Assembly: GCA_949358305.1 (NCBI GenBank)
Contig: OX442314.1
Coordinates: 58,475,369 to 58,539,368, forward strand
Length of the DNA: 64,000 bases
Source of the DNA: Strigamia acuminata
Lineage: Eukaryota; Arthropoda; Chilopoda; Geophilomorpha; Linotaeniidae
Reading direction: 5' to 3'
How positions within the stretch are numbered: the stretch's first letter is position 1; every line of letters begins with the position of its first letter. Made by a program: the position numbers and the translations under genes. The notes below the pieces were generated by a model that was given only the letters and a program-made list of their open reading frames with translations, was not told where the DNA came from and made no database searches. Shown piece by piece: positions 3,442-58,912 of the stretch.

Positions 3442-4072
3442 TGAGGAAACTTTGGAAGTTGAAAACCGAACTTTGAACCTAAACCCATTAATTCACTGAA
3501 GACGAATAGATTGAACATTCACTTGTTTTATTTTAACTGGATTTCACACACCAAGGACTAAACGTCATCAGAAAAGACCGGAAAGCAGTTGGAAGTTGAA
3601 GACAAACTTCCACCGTAACAAATACCAGAGAGACAGTGAGAAGAGAAGGCGAGCATGATGAGCGGCGGGCTTCGACCGCCTCGCTGACCCCGGACCGGCC
3701 TCTTCGTTTGGGCAGGTACACAAACACAGATTACACTGTACACTCGAATCTTAAAAATCCTTCTCATCTGTTTGCGTCCCTATACTAGTAACAGTCGGTT
3801 GAATCTGTAGTTTCACTGATTTGTTTTGAACCGAAGTCAACCAACACTCGACAGTTTTTGAAGTTGTCTATCATTAAAAAAAAAGAAATTAATCCATTAC
3901 TGTAAACAATTCAAAACATTTACTAACAGGACAGATAGCTTGACATCTCCAGTCGCGGGTATTTAAATTTCTGCTCTCTTCTTGCATTTCATAGTCACTT
4001 GAATTTAAAGTTTCCAAGCTGCCAAATGCAAAAGTTACAGCCTGTTGGAGTGGTTCAGAAATTATTTCTTCG

Positions 4073-4275
4073 TTGCGAAATGTTTCACCTTTGTTGCGAA
4101 ATGTTTCACCCTTGTTGCAAAATGTTTCACCCTTGTTGCAAAATGTTTCACCCTTGTTGCAAAATGTTTCACCCTTGTTGCAAAATGTTTTACCTTTGTT
4201 GCAAAATGTTTCACCCTTGTTGCAAAATGTTTCACCTTTGTTGCAAAATGTTTCACCCTTGTTGCAAAATGTTTC
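4073..4275. repeat. 21-bp minisatellite, about 10 copies
   Basis: About ten head-to-tail copies of a 21-bp unit containing AAATGTTTCACCCTTGTTGC, with point variants such as tttacc for tttcac and cgaaatg for caaaatg. Because the period is a multiple of three and the unit contains few stop codons, several frames on both strands stay open and give seven-residue repeats (ETFCNKG on the minus strand; FTLVAKC on the plus). There is no independent support for translation. It lies inside a hairpin-rich, LTR-like region. Confidence 0.9.
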
Positions 4276-4463
4276 CATGGGATTTGCACAGGATTTATTT
4301 CCACTGGATTTATTTATGAGCAACAGCAACGCATCGTCCGATACAGCTTGTCGCGTCCTACCTGGTGATAGGTTTAATGAGCTAACGTGTATTACTTTAC
4401 CTGTGATCTTACTAAATATGTAAATTACCCAAATGAATACTAAGCATATGTAAATGAACAAAT

Positions 4464-8599: not shown

Positions 8600-8973
8600 T
8601 GGTTCAGATAATGGTCTAAGTTATCTCTTCCTTGTTCGATGTCTCTCGCTATTTGTTCATCCTCCATATCAAGCGCCAGATTGTCTACCAACCGCTGGAT
8701 GATCGCATCCAACTTCGCACACACCACTCTTGCCTGAATGGCGCAAAAACGGGCACGCAAAAGCGTGCGGAGGTCCACGTACGATAAATGCGGATATCCG
8801 TTTAAAACGAATGTGTGCTGATTTACTCCAGGCGGAAAGCCTCGAAATGGAACCTCGTTTATAAATTGTATCGCAACCATTGGCACTTCAATGGCTAGGA
8901 CGGCCTCATCATCTAAGGATATGTCTATAACCTCAATCTGGTCAATTGGAATCAAATTCCACGCATTAGACAT
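8533..8973 (-). CDS. MSN family protein A, SUMO-interaction-like motif
   Basis: The open frame extends to 9015 only through a TTG; the ATG shared with the other copies (MSNAWNLIPID) is at 8973. Residues about 10-22 read IEVIDISLDDEA, which fits a SUMO-interacting motif, (V/I)(V/I)x(V/I) followed by acidic residues. It continues with FRGFPPGVNQHTFVLNGYPH and LSYVDLRTLLRARF. The tail (IARDIEQGRDNLDHYLN) is shared with copy E and then diverges into WQGTTLRRKRWKW. Copies lie at about 20-21.5, 24.6-25.4, 26.6-27 and 28.6-29.1 kb, all on the minus strand. About 640 bp of 5' flank, including a PHD remnant, is shared with copy D, so the dispersal was by segmental duplication. Function unknown; the SUMO link is inferred. 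Confidence 0.55.
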   Translation of the reverse strand: MSNAWNLIPIDQIEVIDISLDDEAVLAIEVPMVAIQFINEVPFRGFPPGVNQHTFVLNGYPHLSYVDLRTLLRARFCAIQARVVCAKLDAIIQRLVDNLALDMEDEQIARDIEQGRDNLDHYLNQWQGTTLRRKRWKWNWPWVPQH

Positions 8974-9208
8974 TTTGGAGAAAGCTAAAGGTTCGAAAAG
9001 AAGAAATGGTGTCAAGATTGGAACTAAATTCTATCAAAATGTCTAACAAAAACTAACTTATCTTATAAAAAAAAGCTGAAATAGTATTTAGATATTCTCT
9101 CACAAAGACCTAGTGGCTGATCCACAAAGATCTAGTAACATTTCCTAATAAATCTAACAAGAAAAGCTAAGCTGGTGGTTGGATTTTCCTCCCACAGCGG
9201 CCCAGTAG

Positions 9209-17215: not shown

Positions 17216-17449
17216 CGCCTGCTTGTTTATCCACTGTATGCGGGCCTCCTCTAATGTTTCCTCGAACACGTATTCCACCTGTTTCGTGGCCTTCTGCCGA
17301 GGGGCCGTTGGATTAGACCCGCCTCACACCTGTATCTTCCTTTCTACTGTTGCGATCCTCCGGGATTTCCCACTCTAAACAAATACTTACCTTGTCGGGA
17401 GCGGTTCGCAAGTGAAATGCCGTTTATAGGCCTTATACTCGGCTGCCTG

Positions 17450-18718
17450 TGTGGTGTGTCTAGGGGTATTTTTATGAAAGGAAAACGACAGTTTGAATTG
17501 AATAAAAAGATAAATGAATTTTATTCCTCGAAAATTACAAATAATTGAAAGAAATATAAAATAGAGAATCGAAAGAAAGATTTAATTAATATTAGCGGCT
17601 AAAACTAGGGAGAGGAAGAGGAAAGGAGTGGGAAATGTCACAAGTGAGCGGTTGCGCTCACTCGAAACAAAGGAAAGGCGCCAACAACGACGGTTGATCG
17701 TTAAGCGCGAGTGTTTGGCGCGCAACAAACGGCTGCTTGTTGCGCTCGGAAAATGGCGAAGCGGATTCGCCTGAGAAATATTCTTTCTCGTTGAAAAACG
17801 ATGACTTTCTATCTGTAAACTCCGGAGGAAAGCTCGCAGGTGGTTTACAGATATCGGCGATGGCTTTCTACGAGAAGCGTGCCGTTGACGACGACGATGA
17901 GTCTCGGAACAAGTCGGACGAGACTCACAATAGTTGACAACGAGCGGGTACAAATTTCCTTCGCTTGTACGATGGCGATGAACAGTGAACTCCGGAGTAA
18001 AGCTCGCAGGTGGTTCACTGTCTTCTCACGATGGTTGACGGCGACGGGTTGCTCAATCGACGGAGGCGAGTCTCGGAACAAGTCAACGGGACTCGGCGGC
18101 GACGGTGAGCGAGTTTTCTCGGGCGTTACCCGAGATTCGATGCCTGTACGCAAATGTGGCTGGTGGAAACAGCAATGTCTCTTAACTCACCAAAACGTGT
18201 AAACCCGGTCAGCACTTGGAATCCTTTTGTTTGAAGTTCTTCAGTGATGATCATTTGGGTTGTTGTTGTTGGTGTGTGTGTGTCAAGAGTGGGCCAAACC
18301 GCTAAAATTTGCGGTTTTATGCACTCTTGAAATCTGCGCACTAAATATGTGCAGATTACTAATTTTGGCACAACAAAGGATTTTGTTGCGCCAAAAGCCG
18401 TTATTATTGCACCATAACCGTTGGCTATGGGAAGGGTGGAGTGTGCCGAGCACACTTCGAACATGCGCAGCGGATGCTGCGCAGACAGCGTAATTTAGTG
18501 AAACAAAGCATTTTTGCCTCACTAAGCGGTTAATTAGCGCCTCACCCCACATAATATTGGGGTGAACCAGGTTAGGGGAGTTTTTTCTCCCCTAAATTAT
18601 GTAATTGTTTGGCGTGTGCCAAACACAAATATTACCAAAATAAAATGTAAAATACAACTTCTTTCGTGGTGACTCGTCGTGACATTGAATTAAATAAAAG
18701 TGACTCAGGGTCACCACA
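17450..18718 (-). repeat. Candidate solo LTR (1.27 kb) made of consecutive hairpins
   Basis: Bounded by TGTGGTG (17450) and CACCACA (18718), an inverted pair as expected for LTR ends; the last 13 bases equal those ending at 5167. An AATAAA signal on the minus strand lies about 50 bp inside the left end, as in the Gypsy LTRs, which suggests minus orientation. I saw no PBS or PPT next to it and no convincing target duplication, hence solo and older. From 17640 to 18625 the interior is almost entirely short perfect hairpins, for example GTGAGC/GCTCAC, GCGCAACAA/TTGTTGCGC, CTCGGG/CCCGAG, TGCGCAGC/GCTGCGCA and TTAGGGGAG/CTCCCCTAA. LTR status is inferred from ends and analogy; the hairpins are directly visible. 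Confidence 0.6.
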
Positions 18719-18889
18719 CTACGATGCCGCTTATCGTTTTGAAAATTTCCGGCGACCCCGCCGTCCATGCCTGCTGGAAGTTGGGGGTATCCTCTCTAAC
18801 AAGTAAGTTCACTAGTGGTAATAATTTGTTATCAGAATAAAATTTTGCACTATAAAAGATCAAACAAAAGCACCCCAGCTCCTGCAATT

Positions 18890-19899: not shown

Positions 19900-21461
19900 T
19901 CAATTAGAGCCAAAAGTAGCGTGGAACTCTGTAGCTTCCTCTTTGGTAAAACCACACCAAGACAACAACTTCTCAAGTTCTTCTTCTTCATCGTCAAATG
20001 CTGAATCACCATCCATTGTCGAAAGAAAATAAGTTGCCAAGCCCTTTTTGAAATCGACAACTTCCTGAGCATTTGAAAGAATAAAATTCAAGAAACAGTC
20101 GATCAATGGCCAGTCCCTTGGATTACCAATGCAATAAACAATGTTGCAAACGTGATGAGCGATGCAAGAACAGCTTTCTCTTTAAATTCCTTCATTTCCT
20201 CCTCCGTCCGAACGAATTGCTTCGCTACACTCTCCACGAAATCCCAATTGATATCATCATAACCATATTCGCACATGAGAAACACAACTCGTGCCAATAT
20301 TCGTCCGATCGTCTTTTCACTCCGATGTTCGAACAACTTGGAAATGGCGCCGGAATCTCTGCTCGAGCAAATATCCAAACAAGTCTGGCATAAATTCTCC
20401 ATCTCGCCCGCAAAATCAGTCGGAACCAACTGACGTCTCACTTCGGGGGAAATCAAACCACACCAAGAAAGAAACCTATTTTGAAACAACTCTGAGCTTT
20501 CGTTGTAAATCGTGTAGTCAAACGCCAGACGTTTTTTGAATTTGTCCACTTCTTGCGCGCTTGGGAAACAAAAATTCAAAAAGCGATCGATTTTCGGCCA
20601 CTTGTTTTCCTCACTGTCGCCGAGAACGGCACAAACTGAGTGTGCGAGAGAAGACAAATCTCGCTTGAACATCGCCATCTCTTGTTCAGAAGCGATGCAC
20701 ACTTTTGCCACCGTCTCCAACAAATCCCAATTCAATTCGAAGTCGCTGTCGGTGGCCATGTTTTTCGAAACACACCTGGTCAGGACTCTTCGCTTATTGT
20801 CGGCGTCGCGCAACAATAGTTGGATATTTCGCAAATCCTGCGCGCAAAGTGCCTTACGTGAACCGTCGAAAAGAAATACAAACGTGTCTTCAAAAACGCG
20901 TGCGCAACAGCGAGTTTTAAGATCGGTCGGAGCGTTTGTCAACAAATCCGTCAGACAGTCTTTGATCGCAACAATGTTGACGCAGTTTTTCCTAGAGGAT
21001 GCTCGAATCAACACATCGAGCGTGCAATGAAGACCGTCGCTCGTAAATTGATCCATCACGTGATTGACTGTCGGCGTGAAAAATTCGACGAGCAGAAAAT
21101 CGAACAAGAAAACGACGTAAAGTCGCGATGCGACGTTCGAAGACAAAACGGCGTCGACTTGCTGCTCGTTTAATTGGGCTCGCAAAAGCATACAGAGGTC
21201 CACATAACTTAAATGTGGGTATCCGTTCAAAACGAATTGTTCTGGATCGACTTCAGGCGGAAAGCCTCGGAAGGGAACCTCGTTAATTGGTTGTATAATA
21301 ACCATAGGCTCATCGTCATCGTCAGAGTCCGACTCCGACGGAACTTCAGCGGCCACGATGGCCTCATCGTCTGATGGCACTTGAATGACCTCGACGGCTT
21401 CCTCATCGGAGGTAATATCAATAACCTCTACGAGGTCAATTGGAATTAAATTCCACGACAT
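19900..21461 (-). CDS. MSN family protein B, long chimeric form; frameshift near the end
   Basis: From ATG 21461 the main frame gives 452 residues. Residues 1-95 are the short MSN module with VEVIDITSDEEA (SUMO-interaction-like), a second acidic stretch, MVIIQPINEVPFRGFPP and LNGYPHLSYVDL. From LNEQQVDAVLSS (about 102) it switches to helical sequence shared with gene F at 41.8-43.2 kb (LFDFLLVEFFTPTVNHV, DCLTDLLTNAP, MATDSDFELNWDLLETVAK). A repeat follows: KIDRFLNFCFPSAQEVDKF matches LIDCFLNFILSNAQEVVDF near 20100-20040, but that second unit lies in another frame. A one-base slip near 20185 ends the main frame at 20103, while the shifted frame runs to 19900. It is a broken gene or an assembly error. 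The long helical repeats suggest a scaffold or adaptor; function unknown. Confidence 0.6.
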
Positions 21462-21689
21462 TTTTTTTAGCTAAAGGAAGAAGGAAAAGAAGAAATGGTT
21501 TATAGATTGGAAAAAAATTCTAACAAAATGTCTAACAAAAACTAACTTATCTTATAAAAAAAAGCTGAAATAGTATTTAGATATTCTCTCACAAAGACTT
21601 AGTGGCTGATCCACAAAGATCTGGTAACACTTCCTAATGAAATTAACAAATCTAACCACAAAAGCTAAGCTGACCAGAAAAGAACAATA

Positions 21690-24583: not shown

Positions 24584-25365
24584 TTATAATTGCATTGGTA
24601 ATAACCGAACTGTATTTGGGATCATATGTCCCAGCTCCATCTGGTCATCTCCATCCATTGGAGGATGGAGTCGCTTAACTAAACTTCGGCACAATAGCGA
24701 CAACGCTACAAAATGCTGCACATGGTATAGGTAGTCTCCGGCAGAAATCTTTTGCAACAGGATCATTTGCTATCACGACATCACGCGCCTGGTTGTCGTC
24801 CACCAAGCGCTGGATGATCGCATCCAACTCTCTTCCCACCACCACTCTTGCCTGAATGGCACAAAAACGGGCACGCAAAAGCGTGAGGAGATCCACATAT
24901 GACAGATGCGGATAACCATTTAAAACAAATGTATAAGGATCAACTCCTTTGAAATGTTAATTAAAAATGAAATTTAAACTACAATCTCATACACCTTACA
25001 AATTAGTTATTTACCATGTGCATTCGTGTTTGAAACTATCTCGAGAACGCTTTCTTCCTTATTTTTCTTGGCCTTTCTTTCTCGCTTCTTCTCTCTACGT
25101 TCCTCTTCATTTAGAACTGTTAATTAAAAATGAAATTTAAACTACAATCTCATATACCTTACAAATTAGTTATTTACCATGTGCATTCGTGTCTGAAACT
25201 ATCTCGAGGACGCTTTCTTATTGGTTGTATAACAACCATTGGCTCATCATCGGAGTCTGAGTCCGACTGCTGCCCTTCAACCACCTCGATGGCCTCATCG
25301 CCTGAAGAAATGTCAATGACCTCGATTAGGTCAATCAGGATCAAATTCCACTGCACATTAGACAT
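24584..25365 (-). pseudogene. MSN family copy C, interrupted by a basic exon
   Basis: The N-terminal part is at 25365-25215 (MSNVQWNLILIDLIEVIDIS, then EPMVVIQPI). The second half is at 24960-24675 (YTFVLNGYPHLSYVDLLTLL). A frame change joins it to a tail at 24766-24584 (HPPMDGDDQMELGHMIPNTV) that matches copy E. Between the halves lies foreign sequence with a duplicated block of about 100 bp (24957-25055 and 25119-25215). Within it, a splice-bounded exon on the minus strand encodes EERREKKRERKAKKNKEE. The copy is thus either disrupted or a chimeric spliced gene. Confidence 0.55.
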
Positions 25366-25631
25366 TTTTGAAAAAGCTAAAGGTTCGAACAGAAGATTAG
25401 CCTGAGAGTGAAATGGTGTAAAGATTGGAACAAAATTCTAACAAAATTTCTAACAAAAACTAACTTAACTTATCAAGCTAAAGTAATATTTGGATATTCT
25501 GCAAAAGCCACAAAATCGATTTGAATGCACACCCCCGATTTCACTTTTCTTAACTGACTTCGTGGCATTGTACTCTAGCTCATCCGACTCCTCTCCACTT
25601 GATAAGCAAGGTAGCTGACATCCCGGAAAAG

Positions 25632-26293: not shown

Positions 26294-26636
26294 CCGTGTT
26301 TACATGATAAACGTTTCTATTTTGCTTTTCACTTTGAACTTTGAAATAATCATTAGCTATCTAAAGAACAACAAAATAAACAAATTAAATTAGCAAGAAT
26401 AATAACTAGTATTTTAATTAAATATACTCTTTTAATGTCATCTGCTGTTAATCCTGATCTCTTTTCTGTTAATTTGAGCAATATATCTTCTCGAAATCGA
26501 TTGTAAGCAAGCAATAGCACTCTCTATTGACAAAAAAAATTGAAATGAAAAAAAAAACACAAAACAAAAAACAAACGTCATTTTGAAATTATCCATTTAT
26601 CCATCTGTGTTCTTATCATTCACTTCATTAAGTGCT

Positions 26637-26993
26637 TTATCTAATTGCCGGTATGACATCAAGCGCCTGGTTGCTGTCCACCAAGCGCTGGATGATCGCA
26701 TCCAACTCTGCTCGCACCGCTTTTGCCTGAATGGCACAAAAACGGGCACGCAAAAGCGTGCTGAGGTCCAAGTACGACAAATGTGGATACCCGTTTAAAA
26801 CGAATGTATAACGATCAACTCCTGGTGGAAAGTCTTTAAACGGGACCTCGTTTAATGATTGTATAACAACCATTGACTCATCATCGGAGTCTGAGTTCGA
26901 CGGCATTTCAATGACCACGATGGCCTCATCGTCGGAAGAAATGTCTATGACCTCAACCAGGTCAATTGGGATCAAATTCCGTGCATTAGACAT
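26637..26993 (-). CDS. MSN family protein D, C-terminally short
   Basis: From ATG 26993: MSNARNLIPIDLVEV, then IDISSDDEAIVVIEMPS (SUMO-interaction-like motif with acidic flank), MVVIQSLNEVPFKDFPP and LNGYPHLSYLDLSTLLRARF, ending after DSNQALDVIPAIR at 26637. The tail found in copies A and E (IARD..QGR.NLD.YLN) is absent, so the protein is about 25 residues or more shorter. The frame is clean. The 5' flank to about 27680 is collinear with that of copy A, including the PHD remnant. Confidence 0.5.
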   Translation of the reverse strand: MSNARNLIPIDLVEVIDISSDDEAIVVIEMPSNSDSDDESMVVIQSLNEVPFKDFPPGVDRYTFVLNGYPHLSYLDLSTLLRARFCAIQAKAVRAELDAIIQRLVDSNQALDVIPAIR

Positions 26994-27239
26994 TTTGGAG
27001 AAAGCTAAAGGTTCGAAAAGAAGAAATGGTGTCAAAATTGGAACAAAATTCTAACAAAATGTCTAACAAAAACTAACTTATGTTATAAAAAAAAAGCTGA
27101 AATAGTATTTAGATATTCTCTCACAAAGACCTAGTGGCTGATCCACAAAGATCTGGTAACATTTCCTAATGAAACTAACAAATCTAACAAGAAAAGCTAA
27201 GCTGGTGGTTGGATTTTCTCCCACAGCGGTCCAGTAGTT

Positions 27240-28574: not shown

Positions 28575-29095
28575 TTAAAATATCAAATTTCGAACAGCAT
28601 TGGGGATCATATTCCCCCATATTAATTGGTCATCCCCATCCGTCGGAGGATGAGGTCGCATCACTTGACTTCGGCACATTACCGTCAAGTTTAGATAGTT
28701 ATCTAAGTTTACTCTTCCTTGAAAGAAGTCTCTCGCTATTTGTCCATCATCAATTATTACATCAAGTGCCTGGTTGTTGTCTACCAAGTGCTGGATGATC
28801 GCATCCAACTCCACTCTCACCACTCTTGCCTGAATGTCGCAAAACGGGCACGCAAAAGCGTGCGTAGGTCCACGTACGTCAAATGTGGATATCCGTTTAA
28901 AACGAATGTGTAACGATTAACTCCAGGTGGAAAGCCTCGAAACGGGACCTCATTTATCGGTTGTATCACAACCATAAACTCATCGTTGGAGTCTTGAGTT
29001 CGATGGCACTTCAATAGCCACAACGGCCTCATCATCTGAGGAAATGTCTATGACCTCAACCAGGTCAATTGGGATCAAATTCCAGGCATTAGACA
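28575..29095 (-). pseudogene. MSN family copy E, two frameshifts
   Basis: Three frames must be combined: MSNAWNLIPIDLVEVIDISS near 29095-29000, MVVIQPINEVPFRGFPP and LNGYPHLTYVDLRTLLRARF near 28990-28830, and the tail ELDAIIQHLVDNNQALDV with IARDFFQGRVNLDNYLNL from 28823 to 28575. The tail extends to HPPTDGDDQLIWGNMIPNAV, the longest C-terminus in the family. The two frame changes (near 28990 and 28830) make it a pseudogene unless they are assembly errors. It sits against a hAT transposase fragment. Confidence 0.6.
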
Positions 29096-29599
29096 TTTTG
29101 GAGAAAGCTAAAGGTTCGAAAAGAAGAAATGGTGTAAAGATTGGAACACCAAACTCGCACTTCCAGCTGCAGTTGCACTTGCACTTCCACTTTCTTCTTC
29201 GGAATTCTCGCAGTCCTCCTCGTAACACTTCCTAATGCCTTCAAATGCCTTCATGCCTTTGGTAATTACACATTCACAAAAAATAAATTATCTAAACATT
29301 CGTTCTTTTCTTGCGCCGATTAACCTTTCAAGTGATGTCTAAAAAATAAAGAAAAAAAAATAAATTTAATTTATAAAATTAAATTTAAAATACTTGCAAA
29401 TCTTATAATTGTTGGACATCTATTGCATCTTGAGGCTGGTACTGGTACTCCGTCAATCAGAATAAATTCTATTGGCAGTTTCGTAGATGTTTTGATAAAG
29501 GTGAAGCATCCTAGACCTAGGCAACAAAATAAATAAATAAATCAAACAATCAAATATACAAATTTCATAGAATAACTCTTTCTCACATCTAATTTTATA

Positions 29600-34486: not shown

Positions 34487-36115
34487 TGTACATATTCATA
34501 CACATACCAACAATAACAATAAAATAATTTTTTTTTCTTTTTTTTAGTAGTCACTTTCCCACCTGTTATTTTGTGGCGCGTTAAGGTGCGTTTTCATGTG
34601 CGATTATTTCGTCAATCTTCATTTCCAGGCACAGAAACTTCTGTGGCACAGAAAGTGGCAATCGGTTTTGACAATTTGTGACCGGTCGTACTTTTTTTAA
34701 CCGGTCTCAAATATGGCTGCAATCAGTTCTGCAAACAAATGCAAACAACTGTATATTCTATTTATAAAAATATATTATCAGTTGATAATTAAAATTAAAG
34801 ATTAAAAAAAAAATAGCAATCCTATTCATCCAAACTCCAAAAGAAGCCTTAAAAATGTTTATTGGCATCCATCTTGTTTAGGTTTTGTATAAGGGTGCGT
34901 TTGAATCGGTTTGAATCGGATTTTTTAAAAATCCGATCCAAACCAAAAAATTTTGGATGGATAAACCAATTATCCAATCCTATCCGAAAAAAATTGTGGC
35001 CTATTCAATCCTATCCACATTCAATTCAAACCGAGTGCGGATTGCGGATAGGATTGAGTCCCGAACATCCAAACGTGTCAAACTGATGAATAAAGTGAAA
35101 AATGACCAAAAACTGATGAATTGTGTGCAGAAATGACCAAAAAAAAAGATTAAAATGAGCAAAAATGGCCAAACACGGATGAATTACTTGCAAAACTGGC
35201 CAAAAACGGATGAATTACGTGCAAAACTGACCAAAAAAAGTCGAAAAAAGTTGTGACGATGACTGCCCGGGATAGGAAATGTATCAATTTAAGTCCAGTG
35301 AAACTTCAGAGTGTAGTAAAGTGCAAAAATAACGAAGCAATATGTTTCTCAAAACATAGAACATTTATTAAACGAATCAAGTTTATATAATAACTATGGC
35401 CGACAAATGGCCAATAAATCGGATGAAATAAAACTATACAATAATTGGCTCGAAAGCCCTAACTTAATCTAGAAGATGCCGAGGTATTCAGCCGTGAAAT
35501 AAGAAGTTTAACTTTCTTATTTCTCATGGCGTAACAGATGTCGTCGTAACAATCAGATTGATTATCGTCTGCTTCGGTTGGTTCTGTGTAAAGTAAATAT
35601 CCGAGATGTGCGGTTGTCTTTGCTGCACCGTCACAACTTGGGTTGATCGTTGGTTTAAATATCTATTTGTAGATATTTACCAAATGATCTATTTATAATT
35701 ATCGAAATAATTATAAATCGAGTTGGGCAAGGCTAAGCCTTAAATAAATAATTGTGTACGGATAACTTGGTTAAACAACTTATCACGTAGCAATTACACT
35801 TCCGGATCCGTGTAAAATATTAGTTTGTAACTTATTAATATAAGTCACAACTGAATATTACTTAGTTCTAAAACTCATCAAAAGACTTCGAAATGCAAGA
35901 TGGATTTACAAATAAATCCGGTCAAGCAAGTTGGGATTTAATTAGTTAAGTTACAAATAACTCAACTATTAAATCTGGAAAACTGCAAAGTAAAATGATT
36001 AGGAAAGACCCTGTCAATTCGTTGCACCAAAGTACAACCAGCCCAGAATTTAATCAATGGCGCTCACGTCAATCCAACACTAGGTTTGGTCCTAATGTCT
36101 CGTTGGAAAAGGATT

Positions 36116-36362
36116 TGAGCACGGCATTTTACTGCACGTGCCCCTACAACGGAATGTTGGCATGAAGTACGGGAAAAGGGGTTGAGCACGGCATTTTACT
36201 GCACGTGCCCCTACAACGGAATGTTGGCATGAAGTTCGGGAAAAGGGTTGAGCACGGCATTTTACTGCACGTGCCCCTACAACGGAATGTTGGCATGTAG
36301 ACAGGTAAAGGGAATGAGCACGGAATTTACTGCACGTGCCCCTACAACGGAATGTTGGCATG
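36116..36362. repeat. Minisatellite of about 62 bp, four copies
   Basis: Four head-to-tail copies containing GAGCACGG-ATTTTACTGCACG then TGCCCCTACAACGGAATGTT, with small differences (third and fourth shortened by a few bases). It lies inside the nested LTR. Confidence 0.85.
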
Positions 36363-36397
36363 AAGCGAAGCGAAGCGAAGCGAAGCGAAGCGAAGCG
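36362..36397. repeat. Pentanucleotide microsatellite (GAAGC)n
   Basis: About seven perfect copies of a 5-bp unit, directly after the 62-bp minisatellite. Confidence 0.9.
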
Positions 36398-37361
36398 TAG
36401 AATATATGGGCTCAAGAATATCAAAGTCAGAAACAAAAACAAAACAAGAGCGAGCTATATCCGGTTTGCACTGGGATATATACTCAGTAGGAACAATGAG
36501 TTGGCCATTGCTCCAATAGGAACACTGGTCACTCAGAAACTGCCCAATCCTAGTAATTAGGAAGTGGATACAGGGACACATAGTCTTCTACTAGGTCTGT
36601 CCCAGGAAGTGGATACAGAGGACACATTTGAGATTAAGACTTTTGTCTTACTCTACAAATGTAGATCAAACACCTGTGGGTGGTGAGGGGTGGCTTAATC
36701 CTTTAACCAGGTGTTGATATGATTTGTCCAAATCATAACACACTGTGGAATTAATTACATAAATATATCATACTAGTATGATATAATATATACAACAACC
36801 GTGGATTTATATAAAACCTTTGATTTTATATAAATAACTCATAAATAGTAGATGCATTCGAATTTCCCGCTAAAATGGGAAATAGCGCCATCTATTGGTG
36901 AACTTGGGACTAAATATGACGTTATGACCGTCACAAAGTGAAAAAAAACCATAAAAATTTAAAATAAAGTGCATTTAAATTTATTTTTTGAATTTCGGAT
37001 TATATGGATCGGTTTCGGTTTTTCCCCTCAATCCTATCCGAAATGTATGGATAAAATATTTAATTATCCAATCCGATTCAAAAAAAATCGGATTGATTTG
37101 GGACCATCCATATCCGACTCAATTCAATCCGAATTCGGTTTGGATCGGATTGTACTCAATCCGACCGCACCCTTAGTTTTGTAGGTTAGCTAATTGCATT
37201 ACGTCTTCAGATTCAGGTTAATAGAGATTATTCTGCTTCTTTCAATGCTAGATACAACAGATTTTGCTCCGCTGAGCTGCATACCTGCAATACACTCCAG
37301 CTGTGATGGCGCATTTACTTCTACGATGCACCTTGAATGTCCAGTCGACGTCCTCAACTGA

Positions 37362-37419
37362 ACGCTGTACGTATAAGGTTACCTTATACTACCTTATTAA
37401 GGTAGTATACGTACAGCGT
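37362..37419. promoter_or_regulatory. Nested palindrome just upstream of POLR2E
   Basis: Outer arms ACGCTGTACGTAT and ATACGTACAGCGT are perfect complements. Between them are two smaller hairpins, ATAAGG/CCTTAT and ACTACCTTA/TAAGGTAGT. The whole can fold as a three-way junction or cruciform. It ends 49 bp before the POLR2E ATG. It could be a promoter element, an inserted foldback sequence or a transposon footprint; the role is not known. Confidence 0.6.
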
Positions 37420-44970: not shown

Positions 44971-45218
44971 TCAATTGGTTCCTTTTTATGTTTTCCGTTT
45001 GTGTCTATATTTCGAGAGTTGCACTCATTTCTGATAGCATCAACAGTCATTAGGTTCAAAACGTTTTCATCAGTAGAAAGAAAAATTCCATGCGTAGCAG
45101 AAGCCATTTTTGGAAAGAAAAATACAAATTTTGTAATAAAATATCCTACTTTTCAGTGCTCGTCGTTTACACTGGTCGGTTTTGGTTTCACTTTCTCACA
45201 AACACAACTTTGGCCGGG

Positions 45219-45627
45219 ATAGAGCAAAATTTTCAATTACAAAGTTGTAGAGCACCATCAAATTAGTACTATCCAACTTATCTTACAAGTTAGTCACCTC
45301 AAGTTAAATGTTTTTTTTTTTAAAAAAAAGGAAAACAAATCAGCAAATTGAAATTTTTTATTCTTAGAAAATAAAATAAAAAGGCATTAAAAAAATACAG
45401 TTGTTTTTCTTGTTTACTTGCATAATAATGCAAATTTGAATACATTTATTGAAGAAATTCAGTACTTTTGCAGTAAAAATTTATTTTTTGCCAAAATCGC
45501 TGGCTTTATTTCAGCTGATTTGTTTTGATTTTAAAATGAAAAAGTTAACTTAAGGTGACTAAGATAAGTTGGATAGTACTAATTTGATGGTGCTCTACAA
45601 CTTTGCAATTGGAAATTTTGCTCTATC
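45219..45627. mobile_element. MITE-like element with about 85-bp terminal inverted repeats
   Basis: The left arm (45219-45306, ATAGAGCAAAATTTTCAATT onward, including GAGCACCATCAAATTAGTAC) is repeated inverted at 45543-45627 with few mismatches. The roughly 235 bp between are AT-rich with no ORF. The ends read GATAGAGC... and ...GCTCTATC. No clear target duplication was found. Confidence 0.75.
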
Positions 45628-45802
45628 TTGACCAGATAACGAGTTAGCGAATGAAAAGTGCATTGTTGCATGTCTGGCATGAAATTTGATTAAACCATTG
45701 GATTCGTCATCCCTACTTTGCTACAGGCTAGTCTGCTTGGTTTTTTAAAAAAACATATACTTATTCTGGAAATTGACTGGGCATCTTAAACGAAACACCC
45801 TG

Positions 45803-47784: not shown

Positions 47785-48128
47785 TAGGAATGACTTCGTA
47801 ATCGGCAGCGACTACGATGATTGTTTACTACTGCAGGTTCTATCAGTTTATTGCGGTTTAGTGAGCATTTATTTTGCAAGAGTGGCCATTAAAGTTTTTC
47901 TTGCATGGTTTGAGCGCGGAGAAGAAAAGGAGGGTCGTGTCTGAAAATTTCACAGAGGCAAATTTCCATTAAATTAAATTTAAATTAAATTGAATTTACC
48001 GCTATTTACTAACAGCACCATCTATTGACAAAATTGATTATTTATTTAACTAAAGTTCCTGACTGTCATATATTGTAGGAGATGACGTTGTTTTTCAGCT
48101 CTGGATTCGTTGATTTCTGACCACAAAC

Positions 48129-48751
48129 TGTGAGTGTTCGGACGGACGCCACGTGGTCGGGGGAGAGCCACGGAGGCGCTGGACGCAACACACACGATAA
48201 AACAAACCACGAAATACACGGAGACACAATATAGTTTTAGTTATGGCTTTATTGGATGTCTAGGGGTATGATTGTAGTGTCCCATAGTGTATTTCCCAAG
48301 GCGGCGGTTCCTTCGAACCGTCCCTAATCAGACCGCGTGGCACGGCGGCCATCGGCCGCCATGACACACGAGGTCGGTAATCGGTTTTGGGCCACGCCGC
48401 CGAAGTTACGGTTAACGTCCGGCGGACGTGGCGCAACTGGACGCTCAGGTCCCGGCGGGCGATATCATCGCCACGCCGATAGTTTGGGTTATCTCAATAG
48501 CCAGTTTCGGAGGCGGTCGCAACACGACCGTTCGCCTTGCTGGTTGATCAACAACTCTCTTGTCCCTACGGGGACCAACCACTTCCGGAAGGGCGACTTC
48601 CGGGGCCTGATCCTGCTTGACCAAAGGCCCGCAGCTCCACCTGGTTGCGGAGGACCGCAACAGGCTGCGCGAGATACGAGAGGCGCTGGAGCTGCGCCAA
48701 GTGCATTGCCGTTGCAGTGCAGCGACCCGTGCGCAGGGGCAGCTGGTCACA
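48129..48751 (-). repeat. 3' LTR of the Gypsy element
   Basis: 623 bp, TGTGAG...GTCACA. It holds perfect hairpins at 48305-48320 (CGGTTC/GAACCG), 48344-48360 (GGCGGCC/GGCCGCC), 48391-48432 (GCCACG/CGTGGC enclosing CCGCCG/CGGCGG), 48562-48575, 48585-48603 and 48644-48661 (GTTGCGG/CCGCAAC). A minus-strand AATAAAG lies near 48248-48254. Confidence 0.95.
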
Positions 48752-49246: not shown

Positions 49247-50512
49247 TCACTGCAGCGATTTCCCCGGTGTGGGTGGCGTATCGTCGGTTTTTGGCTCTTC
49301 TTCAGTTTTGTCGTCGACGAATTCTTCTGCTAGCTTCTTGCGTGACTTCTTATTCGACTTCTTTTTCACGGCGGTAGCTTTGGGCTCGGGAACGACTGGC
49401 GGTGGTGGTGGCGGTGTGTGCGACTCCTCGTTCGGTGCGCCGTCAATCTGCATCGCGGTCTCGATCGTTGCTTCGGTGGTGACTACATTGTTGTCGCAAA
49501 CTGGTGGAGGATCCGCGAATCCCTGGAACACGACGTTCGTCGGGCGTTCTCCAACCATCGGCGGCATAATGACAGCCGGCGTCGCCGCTGTATTGGCACC
49601 AAACATCGTTTGCGGTAGTTGGCAGGCCGCTGGAAAAGCGATTGCGGCCGCCGTGGCTTTGGTCGGGATCAGGTTCACAATACCTTGGATTGGTTGAGGA
49701 CCGTACTGTCCCGCCCAAGCTGTTCGTAGCTCATCGGGAGTTTTTTCCGTTTGAGCTGGGATTTTCTTAACGAGTGCGCGTGGCGCATTCGATGTGATTG
49801 TGGCCGATGGCGCAGTCAATTGCTGATGAGCCGCTTTCTCGGCGTCTCTTTTTGCCATTCGGTCCCTATGGTCCGCGTGTTTTTTCGCTCTGTACCGAAT
49901 TTTTGCTTCGGTATTCACGCTTCGTTCACTCAACGTGGGATTTTCGATCGCCACGAGCCGTCTCATTTCCAGCAATTTCTCCGAAATGTTTGGACGGGCG
50001 GTCGGTGGTTGGTGAGGAGCTTGGGCGACGGTACTTTGTACGGTCGCTTTTGTCTCCTCGGCAGCCTTCTTTTTAAGCACAAATGGCTTATGTGGCGGAC
50101 GAAGAACCTTCTGCGACGTCGTCGCTGCGGGTTTCTTCGTAGAGATATTAGTAGAGGCAGTCGGCGGCGGTTGAGAGCGTACGCTCTTCGTTGCCGTTTT
50201 CTGTCTTTTCTTTGGGGGTTCCGTCGGTGTGGCATTCGCCACACGCGCTTGTTCCCTGTCTGCGATTTCCTTCTCGCGTTCTGCGCGCGATCGGACGCGC
50301 ATCCAGTTAATATGTCGGTGGTGCAGCGGAATCGGCTGACCGGGCAGCGTCATGAACATGACAAACCATTCCTCGAGTGGTTGGTCCGCCAGAACGATTT
50401 CGTCTCCGCCGCAGTTCATGCACGGGATCCGCGATAGATTCCACAGCGTGATGTAGCCGAAGCCGTTACAGATTGGGCACTGAACCCATTCGTTGTTTCG
50501 GTGATTTTCCAT
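49247..50512 (-). CDS. Gypsy ORF3, DnaJ-like zinc motif and basic Pro/Ala-rich protein
   Basis: 421 residues downstream of pol, on the same strand, in the position where errantiviruses carry env. It shows no signal peptide or membrane segment, so it is not an envelope. Residues about 10-40 have WVQCPICNGFGYITLWNLSR and PCMNCGGDEIVL: two CxxC knuckles, the first CxxCxGxG-like as in DnaJ zinc domains. Then come an Arg-rich segment, a nuclear-localisation-like PPKKRQKTATKSVR, a long disordered Ala/Thr/Pro region, PPPPPPVVPEP and a Lys-rich then acidic C-terminus (KKKSNKKSRKKLAEEF). It looks like a nucleic-acid-binding accessory protein. The same start is found in the truncated copy at 9.65 kb. 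I know no named family with this architecture. Confidence 0.75.
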   Translation of the reverse strand: MENHRNNEWVQCPICNGFGYITLWNLSRIPCMNCGGDEIVLADQPLEEWFVMFMTLPGQPIPLHHRHINWMRVRSRAEREKEIADREQARVANATPTEPPKKRQKTATKSVRSQPPPTASTNISTKKPAATTSQKVLRPPHKPFVLKKKAAEETKATVQSTVAQAPHQPPTARPNISEKLLEMRRLVAIENPTLSERSVNTEAKIRYRAKKHADHRDRMAKRDAEKAAHQQLTAPSATITSNAPRALVKKIPAQTEKTPDELRTAWAGQYGPQPIQGIVNLIPTKATAAAIAFPAACQLPQTMFGANTAATPAVIMPPMVGERPTNVVFQGFADPPPVCDNNVVTTEATIETAMQIDGAPNEESHTPPPPPPVVPEPKATAVKKKSNKKSRKKLAEEFVDDKTEEEPKTDDTPPTPGKSLQ

Positions 50513-50733: not shown

Positions 50734-53700
50734 TCAATCCCGATATCGGATCGGTAAAACGTGATTTCTCGAAGGTCTATTTGAGTCCGAATTTGGTTTT
50801 GGTCGAGCCGTCGTGGGTTTTTGTGAATCCACTTGTGGCAACAGCAAGGGTTTTATTCTTTTTGGTTTCCCAAAAGGTTTTACTGGTGTTGGCAACTTAG
50901 TTGCGATACCAGATTCCGTTGGTTGCACTGGAGTTGGCAATATCGTTGCTGTTCCAGTGTCCACAGGTTGGTTTTCAAGAACTTCTTCATCTTCCTTATC
51001 TAAAATGGGCCATTCAGCCTTTTCTTCTGAGGGGATGAATCTCCTGAGTTTTACAATGTTGTGTGTACCCCTCGCTTGCAAAGTTATTGGTTTCGCAAGG
51101 GCATACGCATTGTTGTTAAAGACTTTAGTTATTACATAAGGTCCTTCAAAGCGATCCTCAAGGGACGCAGCATATCGATTAGCAGCATTGGACAATGGGT
51201 GGGTCTTTAGTAGAACCAAGTCTCCAATTTCGAACTTATCGTCGCTGCGGTGTTGATCGTAGTAAGTTTTCTGTTTTGCTTGGGCCAGACTCTTATTTTT
51301 AAGAGCTGCAGCAATCAGAGTACGGTGTCTAGCGACTAGCATTCTGACAGCGTCGTAGGGCCTATTTGGGTCGAATGGGGTGTCATAAGACACATCTCGA
51401 TTATCCCAAAATGGTCGTAATTCCCTGCCATACGTCAGCATTGCTGGTGTAAAACCGGTAGACACATTTGGGGCAGAGTGCAAAGCAAAATTTATCTGGT
51501 CAATGCATCTGTCCCAGTGATCGTGCTCAAATGTAAAAATTCGAAGCATAATCTTGATATTCCTGTTTACGCGTTCAGTCAGGTTAGTCTGGGGATGGTA
51601 AGGCGTTGCTTTAATTGGTACAACCCCTGCATCGTCACAGAGAGTCTGAAACACGTCAGAAATGAATTGGGGGCCATTATCGCTCAACATGAAACGAGGG
51701 CACCCATGACAGCTGAAAAATCGTTTTAAAATTGGTGCAATTGCAGTCATTTTAGCGGATCTCAGCGGTGTAGCTTCCATCCAGCCGGTGGCATAATCCA
51801 CCACAACTAGAATGAAGCGATTTCTGTTCGAGGTTCTAGGTAATGGACCTATTAGATCGATTCCTATCTTCTCAAAACGACCAATTTTTGGAGAAGTTGG
51901 GACCATCAATCCCTTTGGTTTTCTCTGAATCGGTTTGCAGCGTTGGCAGCGATTGCAGCTTGCTACATGAAGTTTTACTTCTTTTTGCATGCCAGGCCAG
52001 AAATAAACTCTTTTCAATCGCTCTAGAGTTACTTCAACTCCTCCGTGACCAGCCATCGGATGGTCGTGAATTAGTTGAAGTGCTGCGAGTTGCAGAGATG
52101 GTGGAATAAAGATTTTAAATCCAATTCCCAAATCCTCTTCCTCCACAAAGAAATCAGTTTTAAAAGGTGCATAAATAATAAGCATTCCTTTTCTAGTGAG
52201 TGTGCAGTCGTACTGCCTTTCTTCCAAGAACTTAGGAAGTTCTGGTCGAGGTTGTCCATCATCCAATTCCAACCATTCGATTAGTTTTGAAAGATGTTTA
52301 TCTGCACGCTGCTGTAATATAATGTTCTCGAAAGACATCGGGTAATCGGTCTCATTGGTGAGATATGCCAGAGCAACAGGCTCTATAATCTCAGTTAGAG
52401 TTGCTTTCCCTTCTAATGGATTGCCATTATCAAGAGAGACTCTGGATAAGGCATCTGCGACTTGATTGTCGGTGCCTTTCCGGTACTTGATGGTGAAATT
52501 TTCATTCTGCAATTTCATTGCCCACCTAGCCAGTCTTCCAGCTGGATTTTCCATTGTCATGAGAAATCTCAGAGCATGATGGTCAGTCTCAACTTGGTAC
52601 TCAGAATATTCAATGTATGGTTTGAACTTATCAACAGCCCAAACCACAGCTAAACATTCCAAATCAGTGGTGCTGTAGTTGTTTTCCGCGCCTTGCAGAG
52701 TTCTGCTGGCGTACGCAACTGGTCTTAAAGCACCATGGTCATCCAGTTGCATGAGGACTGCACCGAGCCCGCCGCCACTAGCATCTGTATGGATGGTAAA
52801 GTTGCGAGCGAAATCAGGCAGAGGTAGCACAATTCCTTTTGCAAGCTGGTTTTTCAGATATTCGAAAGCAACATTGCACTCTTCAGACCATTCCCATTTT
52901 GTATCTTTCTTTAAAAGGGCAAAAAATGGTTTTTGAGTAATACTCAGTTTTGGAATTAGAGCAGCATAGAAACCCACCATCCCAATAAAACGCTGAAGCT
53001 GTTTTATACTGGAAGGGGTCGGATAATTTAAAATTGCTTCCACTTTGTCGTTGTTTGGGCTATAACCCCCATTTGACATCGTGAAACCAAGAAAGTTTAA
53101 TTCTTCAGGGCAAATAAATGACTTTGACGGACTCGCTGTCAATTTGTTTTTATCTAATTTTGACAATATGTCATCTAAATGCTGAAGGTGTTCTTCAAAT
53201 GAGTCGCTAAAAATGATAATATCATCGAGGTAAGCGAGTGCCCACTTGTGTTGTGCAGTTCCAAGAACTTGATCCATCATTCTTTGAAATGCACTGGGTG
53301 CATTGCACAGTCCGAAGGGCATACGAGTAAATTGGTATGTTCCATCAGAAGTAGAAAAAGCAGTTTTCTTCTTGTCACTTGATTTAAGTTTTATTTGGTA
53401 ATAACCTTTAGTTAAATCCAAAGTAGAAAAGAACTTTTTTCCACCTAAACAGGCCAAAATCATAGAAATTGAGGGCATCTGGTAGACGTCCTCAATTGTG
53501 ATCTTATTTAGCCAGCGAAAGTCAATACAGAGGCGGTACCCTCCGTCTTTCTTTGCAACAATCACGGGGGGATTTTTATAACTCCCCTCGCAAGGTTCGG
53601 CCCAACCATCTCTCAGCAATTCAGCAACCAATTCGCGATAAATCTCAGCTTTCTTGGGATTCATTGGTCGGTCTTTGCATCGAAATGAAGGTGCATCTCC

Positions 53701-54444
53701 AGTCGGAATTGGATGTTCCAACGTGGGGTGGCAGCCAGCTTTGTCACTAAACACATGTCTGTATTTTTCTACAAGAGTTAAGATTTGAGATCTCTGCCTT
53801 GGTGACAAATTGCTTTTTGCTAACAGTCTCTGGCTCAAATCAGCCGTGGAGACAGAAGGTGACTTTGATTCTGCAACCAAAGCATCCCATCGATCCATTA
53901 TTGCATTTCCAAGTTCTTCAGGCGATGGTGGGTCGTCGAAGGGAAATGTGTCATGTGGAAAATCAAGAAAGAAATATTCTCGATCTGTTAGATTGAGAAC
54001 AATCCTATTTTCGATAATCCAAGAGCAACCTAATAATATAAATTTGGAAGCTGATGGAAGAACAGTAAATGTCACAGGGATTTCACCACCCCGCCACTTG
54101 AGTGGCAATGTGATTGTTCCGATTGGACGTGTTGGTCTATCGCCAGTGTATACAACTCGATTTTCTAAAAATGGAGTCATAAAGTGCAAGAGGTTTAGCT
54201 TTTTAAGCATTCCTCCGCTGATGTACCTATGGGTTGCCCCAGTATCCATCAGAGCGGTGACTTTTAAGCCGTTTAGTGTTGCTTTGAAGTAAGGCAGGGG
54301 AGTAATACTCTTTCCTGTCTTTAAAGCAACGTTAACATGATCGATTTCAGGTTCTGTGGAAAAAACCACGCGAGGATCTGGCTCTGTGGATGAAATGTCA
54401 TCAAATAGCGCATCCTCCATGTCTTCTTCCATTGGAATCAACAC
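50734..54444 (-). CDS. pol: Gypsy pol polyprotein (PR-RT-RNase H-IN)
   Basis: 1236 residues. Domains in order: aspartic protease (MDTGATHRYIS, D67); RT (DGGYRLCIDFRWLNK, FFSTLDLTKGYYQIKL, AYLDDIIIFS near 405); RNase H (FTIHTDASGGGLGAVL, near 550); integrase with HHCC finger (HDHPMAGHGG, CNRCQRCK), catalytic D (IGIDLIGPLP, about 860), D (LSDNGPQF, about 925) and E (LTERVNRNI); then a GPY/F module (RFEGPYVITKV, about 1100) and a basic tail. No chromodomain is seen. All catalytic residues are present. The frame lies -1 relative to gag and is open across the gag stop, so pol is probably made by -1 frameshifting; no canonical slippery heptamer in the right phase was found. The first ATG in frame is 54435 (54444 is TTG). 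Confidence 0.95.
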   Translation of the reverse strand: MLIPMEEDMEDALFDDISSTEPDPRVVFSTEPEIDHVNVALKTGKSITPLPYFKATLNGLKVTALMDTGATHRYISGGMLKKLNLLHFMTPFLENRVVYTGDRPTRPIGTITLPLKWRGGEIPVTFTVLPSASKFILLGCSWIIENRIVLNLTDREYFFLDFPHDTFPFDDPPSPEELGNAIMDRWDALVAESKSPSVSTADLSQRLLAKSNLSPRQRSQILTLVEKYRHVFSDKAGCHPTLEHPIPTGDAPSFRCKDRPMNPKKAEIYRELVAELLRDGWAEPCEGSYKNPPVIVAKKDGGYRLCIDFRWLNKITIEDVYQMPSISMILACLGGKKFFSTLDLTKGYYQIKLKSSDKKKTAFSTSDGTYQFTRMPFGLCNAPSAFQRMMDQVLGTAQHKWALAYLDDIIIFSDSFEEHLQHLDDILSKLDKNKLTASPSKSFICPEELNFLGFTMSNGGYSPNNDKVEAILNYPTPSSIKQLQRFIGMVGFYAALIPKLSITQKPFFALLKKDTKWEWSEECNVAFEYLKNQLAKGIVLPLPDFARNFTIHTDASGGGLGAVLMQLDDHGALRPVAYASRTLQGAENNYSTTDLECLAVVWAVDKFKPYIEYSEYQVETDHHALRFLMTMENPAGRLARWAMKLQNENFTIKYRKGTDNQVADALSRVSLDNGNPLEGKATLTEIIEPVALAYLTNETDYPMSFENIILQQRADKHLSKLIEWLELDDGQPRPELPKFLEERQYDCTLTRKGMLIIYAPFKTDFFVEEEDLGIGFKIFIPPSLQLAALQLIHDHPMAGHGGVEVTLERLKRVYFWPGMQKEVKLHVASCNRCQRCKPIQRKPKGLMVPTSPKIGRFEKIGIDLIGPLPRTSNRNRFILVVVDYATGWMEATPLRSAKMTAIAPILKRFFSCHGCPRFMLSDNGPQFISDVFQTLCDDAGVVPIKATPYHPQTNLTERVNRNIKIMLRIFTFEHDHWDRCIDQINFALHSAPNVSTGFTPAMLTYGRELRPFWDNRDVSYDTPFDPNRPYDAVRMLVARHRTLIAAALKNKSLAQAKQKTYYDQHRSDDKFEIGDLVLLKTHPLSNAANRYAASLEDRFEGPYVITKVFNNNAYALAKPITLQARGTHNIVKLRRFIPSEEKAEWPILDKEDEEVLENQPVDTGTATILPTPVQPTESGIATKLPTPVKPFGKPKRIKPLLLPQVDSQKPTTARPKPNSDSNRPSRNHVLPIRYRD

Positions 54445-58289: not shown

Positions 58290-58912
58290 TGTGAGTGTTC
58301 GGACGGACGCCACGTGGTCGGGGGAGAGCCACGGAGGCGCTGGACGCAACACACACGATAAAACAAACCACGAAATACACGGAGACACAATATAGTTTTA
58401 GTTATGGCTTTATTGGATGTCTAGGGGTATGATTGTAGTGTCCCATAGTGTATTTCCCAAGGCGGCGGTTCCTTCGAACCGTCCCTAATCAGACCGCGTG
58501 GCACGGCGGCCATCGGCCGCCATGACACACGAGGTCGGTAATCGGTTTTGGGCCACGCCGCCGAAGTTACGGTTAACGTCCGGCGGACGTGGCGCAACTG
58601 GACGCTCAGGTCCCGGCGGGCGATATCATCGCCACGCCGATAGTTTGGGTTATCTCAATAGCCAGTTTCGGAGGCGGTCGCAACACGACCGTTCGCCTTG
58701 CTGGTTGATCAACAACTCTCTTGTCCCTACGGGGACCAACCACTTCCGGAAGGGCGACTTCCGGGGCCTGATCCTGCTTGACCAAAGGCCCGCAGCTCCA
58801 CCTGGTTGCGGAGGACCGCAACAGGCTGCGCGAGATACGAGAGGCGCTGGAGCTGCGCCAAGTGCATTGCCGTTGCAGTGCAGCGACCCGTGCGCAGGGG
58901 CAGCTGGTCACA
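58290..58912 (-). repeat. 5' LTR of the Gypsy element
   Basis: The same 623 bp as the 3' LTR, with no mismatch noticed, including all hairpins. Flanked on the right by the target duplication aaac. Confidence 0.95.

Follow-up and report, generated by a model that had tools for sequence, protein, structure and literature searches.

A serial array of short hairpins in the inferred U3 of a long terminal repeat from Strigamia acuminata

The solo LTR, its family and its surroundings

The stretch of Strigamia acuminata DNA analysed here (the window, 64,000 nucleotides of contig OX442314.1) contains a solo long terminal repeat (LTR) of 1371 bp from a retrotransposon family, and inside it an array of short perfect hairpins (Table 1). 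An earlier sequence-only reading had named a candidate solo LTR at this place. The comparison of 30 loci with their flanks upholds that identity, since the loci share a 1371-bp unit, longer than the interval first noted, with ends of the TGT...ACA type and target site duplications (TSDs). In the sense orientation the ends read TGTGGTGACC...CGCAACA, and as written in the window (plus strand) they read TGTTGC...CACCACA. Of the 40 loci cut out from the genome, 30 retain both ends, and a perfect 4-bp TSD flanks 23 of them; of the other seven, six adjoin internal sequence on one side and one (L010) has a TSD in which three of the four bases agree. Two of the loci, L017 and L018, are a single duplicated site. 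A MITE or foldback transposon was ruled out, as the ends of the unit are LTR ends, and the sole inverted repeat of at least 40 nt reported in the window lies outside the LTR, at 45211-45634 (75 bp, 93% complementary, arms 274 nt apart).

Table 1. Coordinates of the solo LTR and of the features within it (window positions)
Feature	Position	Strand	Basis or remark
Solo LTR	17348..18718	minus (sense)	common unit of 30 loci, ends and TSDs
TSD CTAC, left	17344..17347	.	sequence
TSD CTAC, right	18719..18722	.	sequence
U5 hairpin, splice-donor-like GTAAGTA in loop	17370..17404	minus	stem replaced between subfamilies
AATAAA, candidate polyadenylation signal	17520..17525	minus	proposed role
Pyrimidine tract with terminal AG, resembling a splice acceptor or an initiator	17605..17625	minus	proposed role
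Array of 19 perfect hairpins (6 bp or more), probably in U3	17640..18625	minus	counts, folding, covariation
Twin hairpin 1, 11-bp stem, conserved 22-nt loop CACCTGCGAGCTTTnCTCCGGA (sense)	17810..17853	minus	
Hairpin TGAGTCTCG/CGAGACTCA	17898..17927	minus	perfect hairpin list and alignment
Twin hairpin 2, same loop CACCTGCGAGCTTTnCTCCGGA, different matching stem (9 bp)	17982..18021	minus	
Hairpin TGCGCAGC-GGAT-GCTGCGCA	18464..18483	minus	loop inverted, stem longer in L055
Hairpin TCACCCCA/TGGGGTGA	18542..18565	minus	perfect hairpin list, covariation
Hairpin TTAGGGGAG-T6-CTCCCCTAA	18572..18595	minus	perfect hairpin list, covariation
Hairpin TGTTTGGC/GCCAAACA	18606..18625	minus	perfect hairpin list, covariation

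The genome (237.5 Mb, 157 contigs) holds at least 46 matches to 17640-18625, from about 40 separate places and with some copies split. This is a lower bound for the copy number, because 40 of 180 candidates were scored. Among the matches listed, 33 are near full length, comprising the window copy itself and others at 84-90% identity. Two LTRs, L038 and L040, are cut at nearly the same position (about 18045-18046 in window coordinates), with unrelated sequence beyond.

Two full copies, L031 and L032, have two direct LTRs with 6.1 kb between them. The LTRs of each pair differ by substitutions at only 9 of 1396 sites (L031) and 6 of 1397 sites (L032), so the family moved fairly recently. A PBS-like sequence, which presumably resembles tRNA-Pro, follows the 5' LTR, a PPT-like sequence precedes the 3' LTR, and a long gag open reading frame (ORF) encodes 953-979 aa, varying with copy and start. 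The orientation of these three features places the sense strand of the element on the minus strand of the window, a point absent from the earlier reading. The gag ORF of L031 matches PF03732 (E 1e-6) and the sequences of solved Arc chains (E 5e-4), together with a sub-threshold CCHC match, and has no homologue at 1e-3 in the protein database. No Pfam match to reverse transcriptase (RT) or integrase was found in the ORF pieces scanned, which come from these two full copies, there being 15 internal candidates in the genome. Downstream of gag, L031 has a 560-aa open frame (L031:6335-8014) without Pfam match and with a PDB hit at chance level only.

Paired LTRs, TGT...ACA ends, 4-bp TSDs, PBS- and PPT-like sequences, a PF03732 gag and the sub-threshold CCHC match liken the family to Ty3/gypsy-type elements (Metaviridae), from which it differs in that the copies read contain no RT or integrase and in that its U3 is full of covarying hairpins. 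A pair of LTRs 12.9 kb apart (C6) was considered as an autonomous partner and rejected as a duplicated solo LTR, because its stop-to-stop frames include none of 120 aa in the first piece and one of 130 aa in the second, and because the LTR flanks are the same. Next to a diverged relative (L045), the segment L076:1614-3676 has frames with weak, below-cut-off matches to Dam and phage integrase, which presumably recall DIRS-type elements.

Other elements and repeats are present in the window. The segment 35400-36950 is an LTR from a second family of Ty3/gypsy type, which is autonomous and was active recently and whose full copies have LTRs 9.1-9.5 kb apart; a tandem repeat of about 66 bp (36105-36377) lies inside it. 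In L071, one copy of this second family, the gag and pol frames are open and encode RT, protease, RNase H and integrase domains; the LTRs of this copy are identical over 1390 bp. The gag of L031 resembles that of L071 at 25% identity (E 5e-10). A further Ty3/gypsy-type element lies on the minus strand, with LTRs at 48129-48751 and 58290-58912 that are identical over 623 bp, open gag (54468-56162) and pol (50734-54444) frames, and a third ORF (49247-50512) without Pfam match. A tandem repeat of 21-bp period (GTTGCAAAATGTTTCACCCTT) occupies 4030-4317, and the diverged repeats at 8682-9160, 21107-21649, 24743-25483, 26621-27181 and 28724-29197 look like duplicated genes or gene fragments. For one protein encoded in the window, the best database hit comes from Strigamia maritima, at 60% identity.

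Hairpin abundance, folding energy and covariation

The hairpins of 17640-18625 were counted as perfect Watson-Crick, non-overlapping stems with loops of 3-30 nt and compared with 200 shuffles. Stems of at least 6 bp number 19 (shuffle mean 4.96, maximum 9), those of at least 7 bp 15 (mean 1.3, maximum 4), those of at least 8 bp 10 (mean 0.46, maximum 2) and those of at least 9 bp 6 (mean 0.09, maximum 2). The earlier estimate of about 18 non-overlapping hairpins is thus borne out. Eleven of the 12 intervals it named agree within a base at their ends, and the remaining one, 18363-18396, needs one A/C mismatch, its perfect core being 18371-18388. As the earlier reading stated, the array taken as a whole is no tandem repeat, though two of its hairpins share one loop and represent a diverged duplication. 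No Rfam family matches the array, and no ribozyme match, hammerhead included, was found in the window at gathering threshold or in 17348-18718 up to E 5.

The predicted minimum free energy of the array as RNA is also far below that of shuffled controls, the comparison proposed in the earlier reading: -399.3 for the plus strand against -312.0 (sd 7.6; 20 shuffles, z -11.4), and -368.9 for the minus or sense strand against -261.2 (z -17.2). Across the window, the strongest z among 319 windows of 400 nt falls at 18201-18600 (-9.8 plus, -12.4 minus), with medians of about -0.9; next comes 35401-37400, with z down to -8.3, and several further stretches go beyond -4.5. All 10 LTR copies tested, down to about 75% identity, fold below their shuffles (z -7.7 to -10.3 plus, -10.8 to -16.8 sense), and the U5 end of four copies has no energy excess like that of the array (z +1.1 to -2.4). 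In diverged relatives, which were found by the loop pattern described below, the hairpins of at least 7 bp number 15 (L045), 19 (L048), 11 (L051), 17 (L055), 14 (L056) and 17 (L057), against about two in the shuffle control (60 shuffles). The two relatives of about 65% identity, L046 (LTR of 980 bp) and L047 (end put by hand at 900 nt), have six each, against 1.3 shuffled. Hairpin arrays thus occur in relatives 10-25% diverged, and partly at 35%.

Two other LTRs of the window fold strongly. That of the second family has nine hairpins of at least 7 bp, against 2.0 shuffled (maximum 7, 100 shuffles), with z -8.2/-9.1, and in 10 aligned rows six of its eight double variants are Watson-Crick. The LTR of the other Ty3/gypsy-type element (scanned at 48127-48751) is not claimed as a hairpin array, despite z -6.3/-7.3, because it has three hairpins of at least 7 bp (shuffle mean 0.9, maximum 4) and none of at least 8 bp.

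Covariation was measured in an alignment (A2) of 34 LTRs out of 54 LTR-bearing loci, with stems placed from the window copy alone; near-duplicates, fragments, nested or inserted copies and the most distant LTRs, L046 and L047, were omitted. In this alignment 24 of 147 pairs have changed on both sides, against 11.9 (sd 2.1) after shuffling, so that the covariation among aligned copies which had been named as a check is present. The double-change cells number 74, against 20.2 shuffled, with none of 500 shuffles as high. In a control the structure was slid so that each partner moved 1-3 columns, and this yields 5-12 pairs and 6-20 cells. In a tree for which non-stem columns were used, 44 double changes start from a Watson-Crick pair, and 37 of these arrive at another such pair, where one third would be expected. 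Internal branches have 21 compensated events among 88 changes and terminal branches 16 among 152 (p 0.009), and a tree-free count gives 14 of 78 shared variants against 4 of 82 private ones (p 0.011, 36 copies), event counts and p values that are optimistic because the copies are related and the tree shows reversals. That matched changes are commoner on internal branches favours selection during replication over the repair of resident copies. Selection while the element replicates is accordingly supported, although not proved, and the suggestion that local self-complementarity is maintained or generated here finds support in the covariation.

Stem conservation on its own is weak. Single-copy stems have a column diversity of 0.089, against 0.107 in loops, 0.113 between hairpins and 0.158 in the rest of the LTR, and in 12 runs between 1 and 236 of about 1000 rolls were equally extreme. 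A sharper contrast obtained with RNAalifold (0.047 in stems against 0.12-0.14 elsewhere) was set aside as circular, because the method favours conserved columns and the single-copy stems give a small contrast.

The two twin hairpins combine a nearly fixed loop with varying stems. Their loop pattern, allowing up to three mismatches, has 98 matches in the genome, and the reversed control none. In a tally of 101 places within the fetched loci (loop with up to three edits), the commonest 9-bp stems are ACAGTGAAC (37), TCTGTAAAC (27), TTCGTAAGC (13) and ACTGTAAAC (4), each with its perfect partner; TCTGTAAGC and TCTGCAAAC are perfect as well and occur once each, and 18 places have wobbles, mismatches or no stem. 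An alignment of 39 distinct sequences of the motif (A1) has both sides changed at 8 of 11 stem pairs, 64 double-change cells against 26 shuffled, and 89.5% of cells paired against 74.7% shuffled, a value that none of 500 shuffles reaches. In the 34-LTR alignment 98.7% of the cells of twin hairpin 1 are paired, and its diversity is 0.135 in the stem and 0.035 in the loop, a low value that is not unique, since 28 and 43 of 1350 LTR windows of 22 nt are equal or lower. In the predicted minus-strand fold, the loop itself may form a smaller bulged helix.

Sense strand and rival explanations

The strand on which the hairpins would act can be approached through wobble pairs. Written in plus orientation, an A.C event corresponds to G.U in the sense RNA, and a G.T event to G.U in the antisense RNA. 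Sense wobbles exceed antisense ones on internal branches (30 against 13, p 0.014 for a 1:1 expectation), on terminal branches (59 against 40, p 0.07) and on all branches taken together (89 against 53, p 0.003). Mutation bias does not explain this excess, because the per-base rates of unpaired columns predict an A.C share of 46-49%, with p 0.002-0.009 on internal branches. The wobble cells of the twin motif are divided 13 to 4 in favour of sense; the tree-free count of wobble variants (53 against 36, p 0.09) is not significant, and single changes in the 10 rows of the second-family LTR have no strand bias (12 against 10). The bias extends to terminal branches, where selection should be weaker, which counts against selection on the sense RNA. 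When the control sequences retain the perfect stems, the comparison favours sense in all 12 related copies (z 0.7-3.7). Raw strand energy was rejected as support, since sense is lower in 5 of 34 copies at span 60 and in 3 of 34 at span 200; the lower raw energy of the plus strand in most copies is put down to composition. Sense RNA, rather than DNA, as the functional form is supported, not proved.

The array probably belongs to the U3 of the LTR, and its roughly 19 local hairpins probably form in the sense RNA and are kept by selection during replication. Among the roles suggested earlier, none of which is proved, structured RNA fits best, given the sense wobble bias and the nearly fixed twin loops. 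An unlikely account, although one with a clear example, is fold-back copying, in which the polymerase of the element (its RT) or of host replication repeatedly jumps to a new template where short inverted repeats occur, so that one arm is copied from the other in reverse complement. Stems would then be made or repaired in single steps, and the hairpins would be by-products without a role. PMC8794818 describes template switching in RNA genes as a source of hairpin creation, loop inversion and multi-pair correction, and states that double changes can come in one step by this route. The clear example is L055, which at 18464-18483 has the loop ATCC in place of GGAT and one flank rewritten so that it complements the other, which makes the stem 18 bp long; local repeats occur there as well, and a template-switch event is likely. 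L042 has a loop of the inverted type too. In the same direction point the wholesale replacement of hairpins between subfamilies at 17898 (where 23 of the 34 aligned copies have a different segment in place of 17898-17927), at 18440-18483 and in U5, and the joint switch of three pairs of twin hairpin 1 from TCTGTAAAC to TTCGTAAGC in one copy group. General support is nevertheless scarce. In the comparison of each copy with its nearest relative, a reverse-complement copy within 60 nt fully accounts for none of the 174 mutation clusters, and a looser scan gave four reverse-complement hits, three of them from the L055-L012 pair, against two and one in controls, both scans being of low power. Furthermore, the twin loops are not inverted in any of the 34 aligned LTRs, matched changes form a smaller share on terminal branches, and fold-back copying predicts no strand bias among wobbles. 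A mixed model, where template switching creates hairpins and selection keeps them, fits all the data.

Promoters and enhancers reside in U3, and the palindromes could act there as DNA, either as sites for dimeric regulators or as extruded hairpins. DNA folding parameters also place the array far below its shuffles (z -10.4), yet arms that vary between hairpins and loops of up to 30 nt are ill-suited to one dimeric factor, the twin stems change while their loop stays, and wobble events are biased to one strand. Control of transcription or recombination at the DNA level, another of the roles suggested earlier, seems still more improbable than fold-back copying. It is very improbable that the foldbacks serve or suffer RNA silencing, as mimics of small-RNA precursors or as a shield against small-RNA targeting: the resemblance to miRNA precursors (mir-96, E 0.15; mir-981, E 2.7) is sub-threshold and far under gathering, the hairpins are short and unequal in size, and nearly fixed loops would not be expected. 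As for chance, composition or a sampling artefact, the shuffle controls, the U5 control, the window-wide background and the covariation refute it and leave it a negligible probability.

Processing signals and a possible role of the array

The preferred reading, sense RNA hairpins kept by selection, gains a context from the candidate processing signals of the LTR. AATAAA and the AT-rich stretch preceding it point to an end of U3 about 190 nt short of the LTR end. In the sense orientation, AATAAA lies 135 nt upstream of a donor-like site, AAG|GTAAGTA, which stands at the tip of the U5 hairpin. The stem of this hairpin is CCGCTC or CCACTC with GAGTGG or GAGCGG in most copies, TATTCACGA/TCGTGAATA in L045 and L048, and TTGACC.GTAAA/TTTAC.GGTCAA in L046 and L047. 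Predicted folds of 38 copies, as read here, put the donor-like site in the apical loop in 28 and partly paired in 10 (L008, L017, L018, L020, L022-L025, L034 and L045). Its first intron base is changed in L011 and L055 and another letter in L004, L015, L037, L051 and L057, and the segment is absent from L026, L033, L035, L038 and L040. L011 is the 5' LTR of the full copy L031, whose other LTR, L013, is unchanged at the first intron base. The site may be a used splice donor.

With signals so placed, the full-length RNA would contain U3 at its 3' end only, and the array would form a folded 3' UTR. In the 5' LTR it would lie upstream of transcription, judging from AATAAA and the AT-rich stretch; if R started near the start of the LTR, the array would also be part of the 5' leader. 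A donor in the leader would mean that unspliced RNA must escape splicing and be exported or correctly ended, a task for which retroviruses use RNA structures in the LTR or at the 3' end. The array and the U5 donor hairpin may then govern the export, 3' processing or packaging of unspliced RNA, and the twin loops may be protein-binding sites, for Gag or for a host RNA-export factor. If the hairpins work as RNA, export or 3'-end processing is a plausible job, without being an assured one; packaging or dimerisation is more doubtful, and some other job slightly more so again.

Retroviral structures for export and 3' processing are what the array may work like, by analogy and not by membership. The Rex responsive element of HTLV-1, which bridges a long R according to PMC3694450, is likewise an extensive RNA structure within the LTR near the polyadenylation signal; there it is one element, and here about 19 separate hairpins with an export role proposed by analogy. 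The major splice donor of foamy virus also lies in the LTR, in or beside RNA hairpins, as the predicted donor-like site does here, and PMC3694450 has U1 snRNP at that donor suppress polyadenylation in the 5' LTR. The foamy virus donor, however, is upstream of the polyadenylation signal, whereas the donor-like site here is in U5, downstream of AATAAA. For long R regions of retroviral LTRs, PMC3601003 links residual conservation to stem-loops; here the structure is an array of about 1 kb, in a probable U3, with measured double changes.

The hammerhead ribozyme of retrozymes sits in their LTRs. These non-autonomous elements with a functional RNA fold (PMC4918200) offer a further likeness, and the present family differs from them in having no Rfam ribozyme match and in carrying gag. 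An LTR that combines a serial hairpin array in U3 with twin sites of one conserved bulged loop and a donor on a hairpin was not met in the open PMC papers searched, a scope that does not demonstrate its absence in print.

Tentatively, several LTR families of the lineage might share a modular LTR for RNA control, consisting of a U3 hairpin array, twin bulged loops and a donor hairpin, with modules swapped by fold-back copying and then selected. U3 is regarded mainly as promoter DNA, and conservation there is generally lower than elsewhere in the LTR (PMC3601003). In this family RNA structure seems to have shaped about 1 kb of U3, whose diversity (0.09-0.11) is below that of the remaining LTR (0.158). 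The twin hairpin is a compact and well-defined RNA motif whose partner can be sought. Since many copies record how stems are made, swapped and kept, stepwise compensation and template switching can be tested against each other within one genome.
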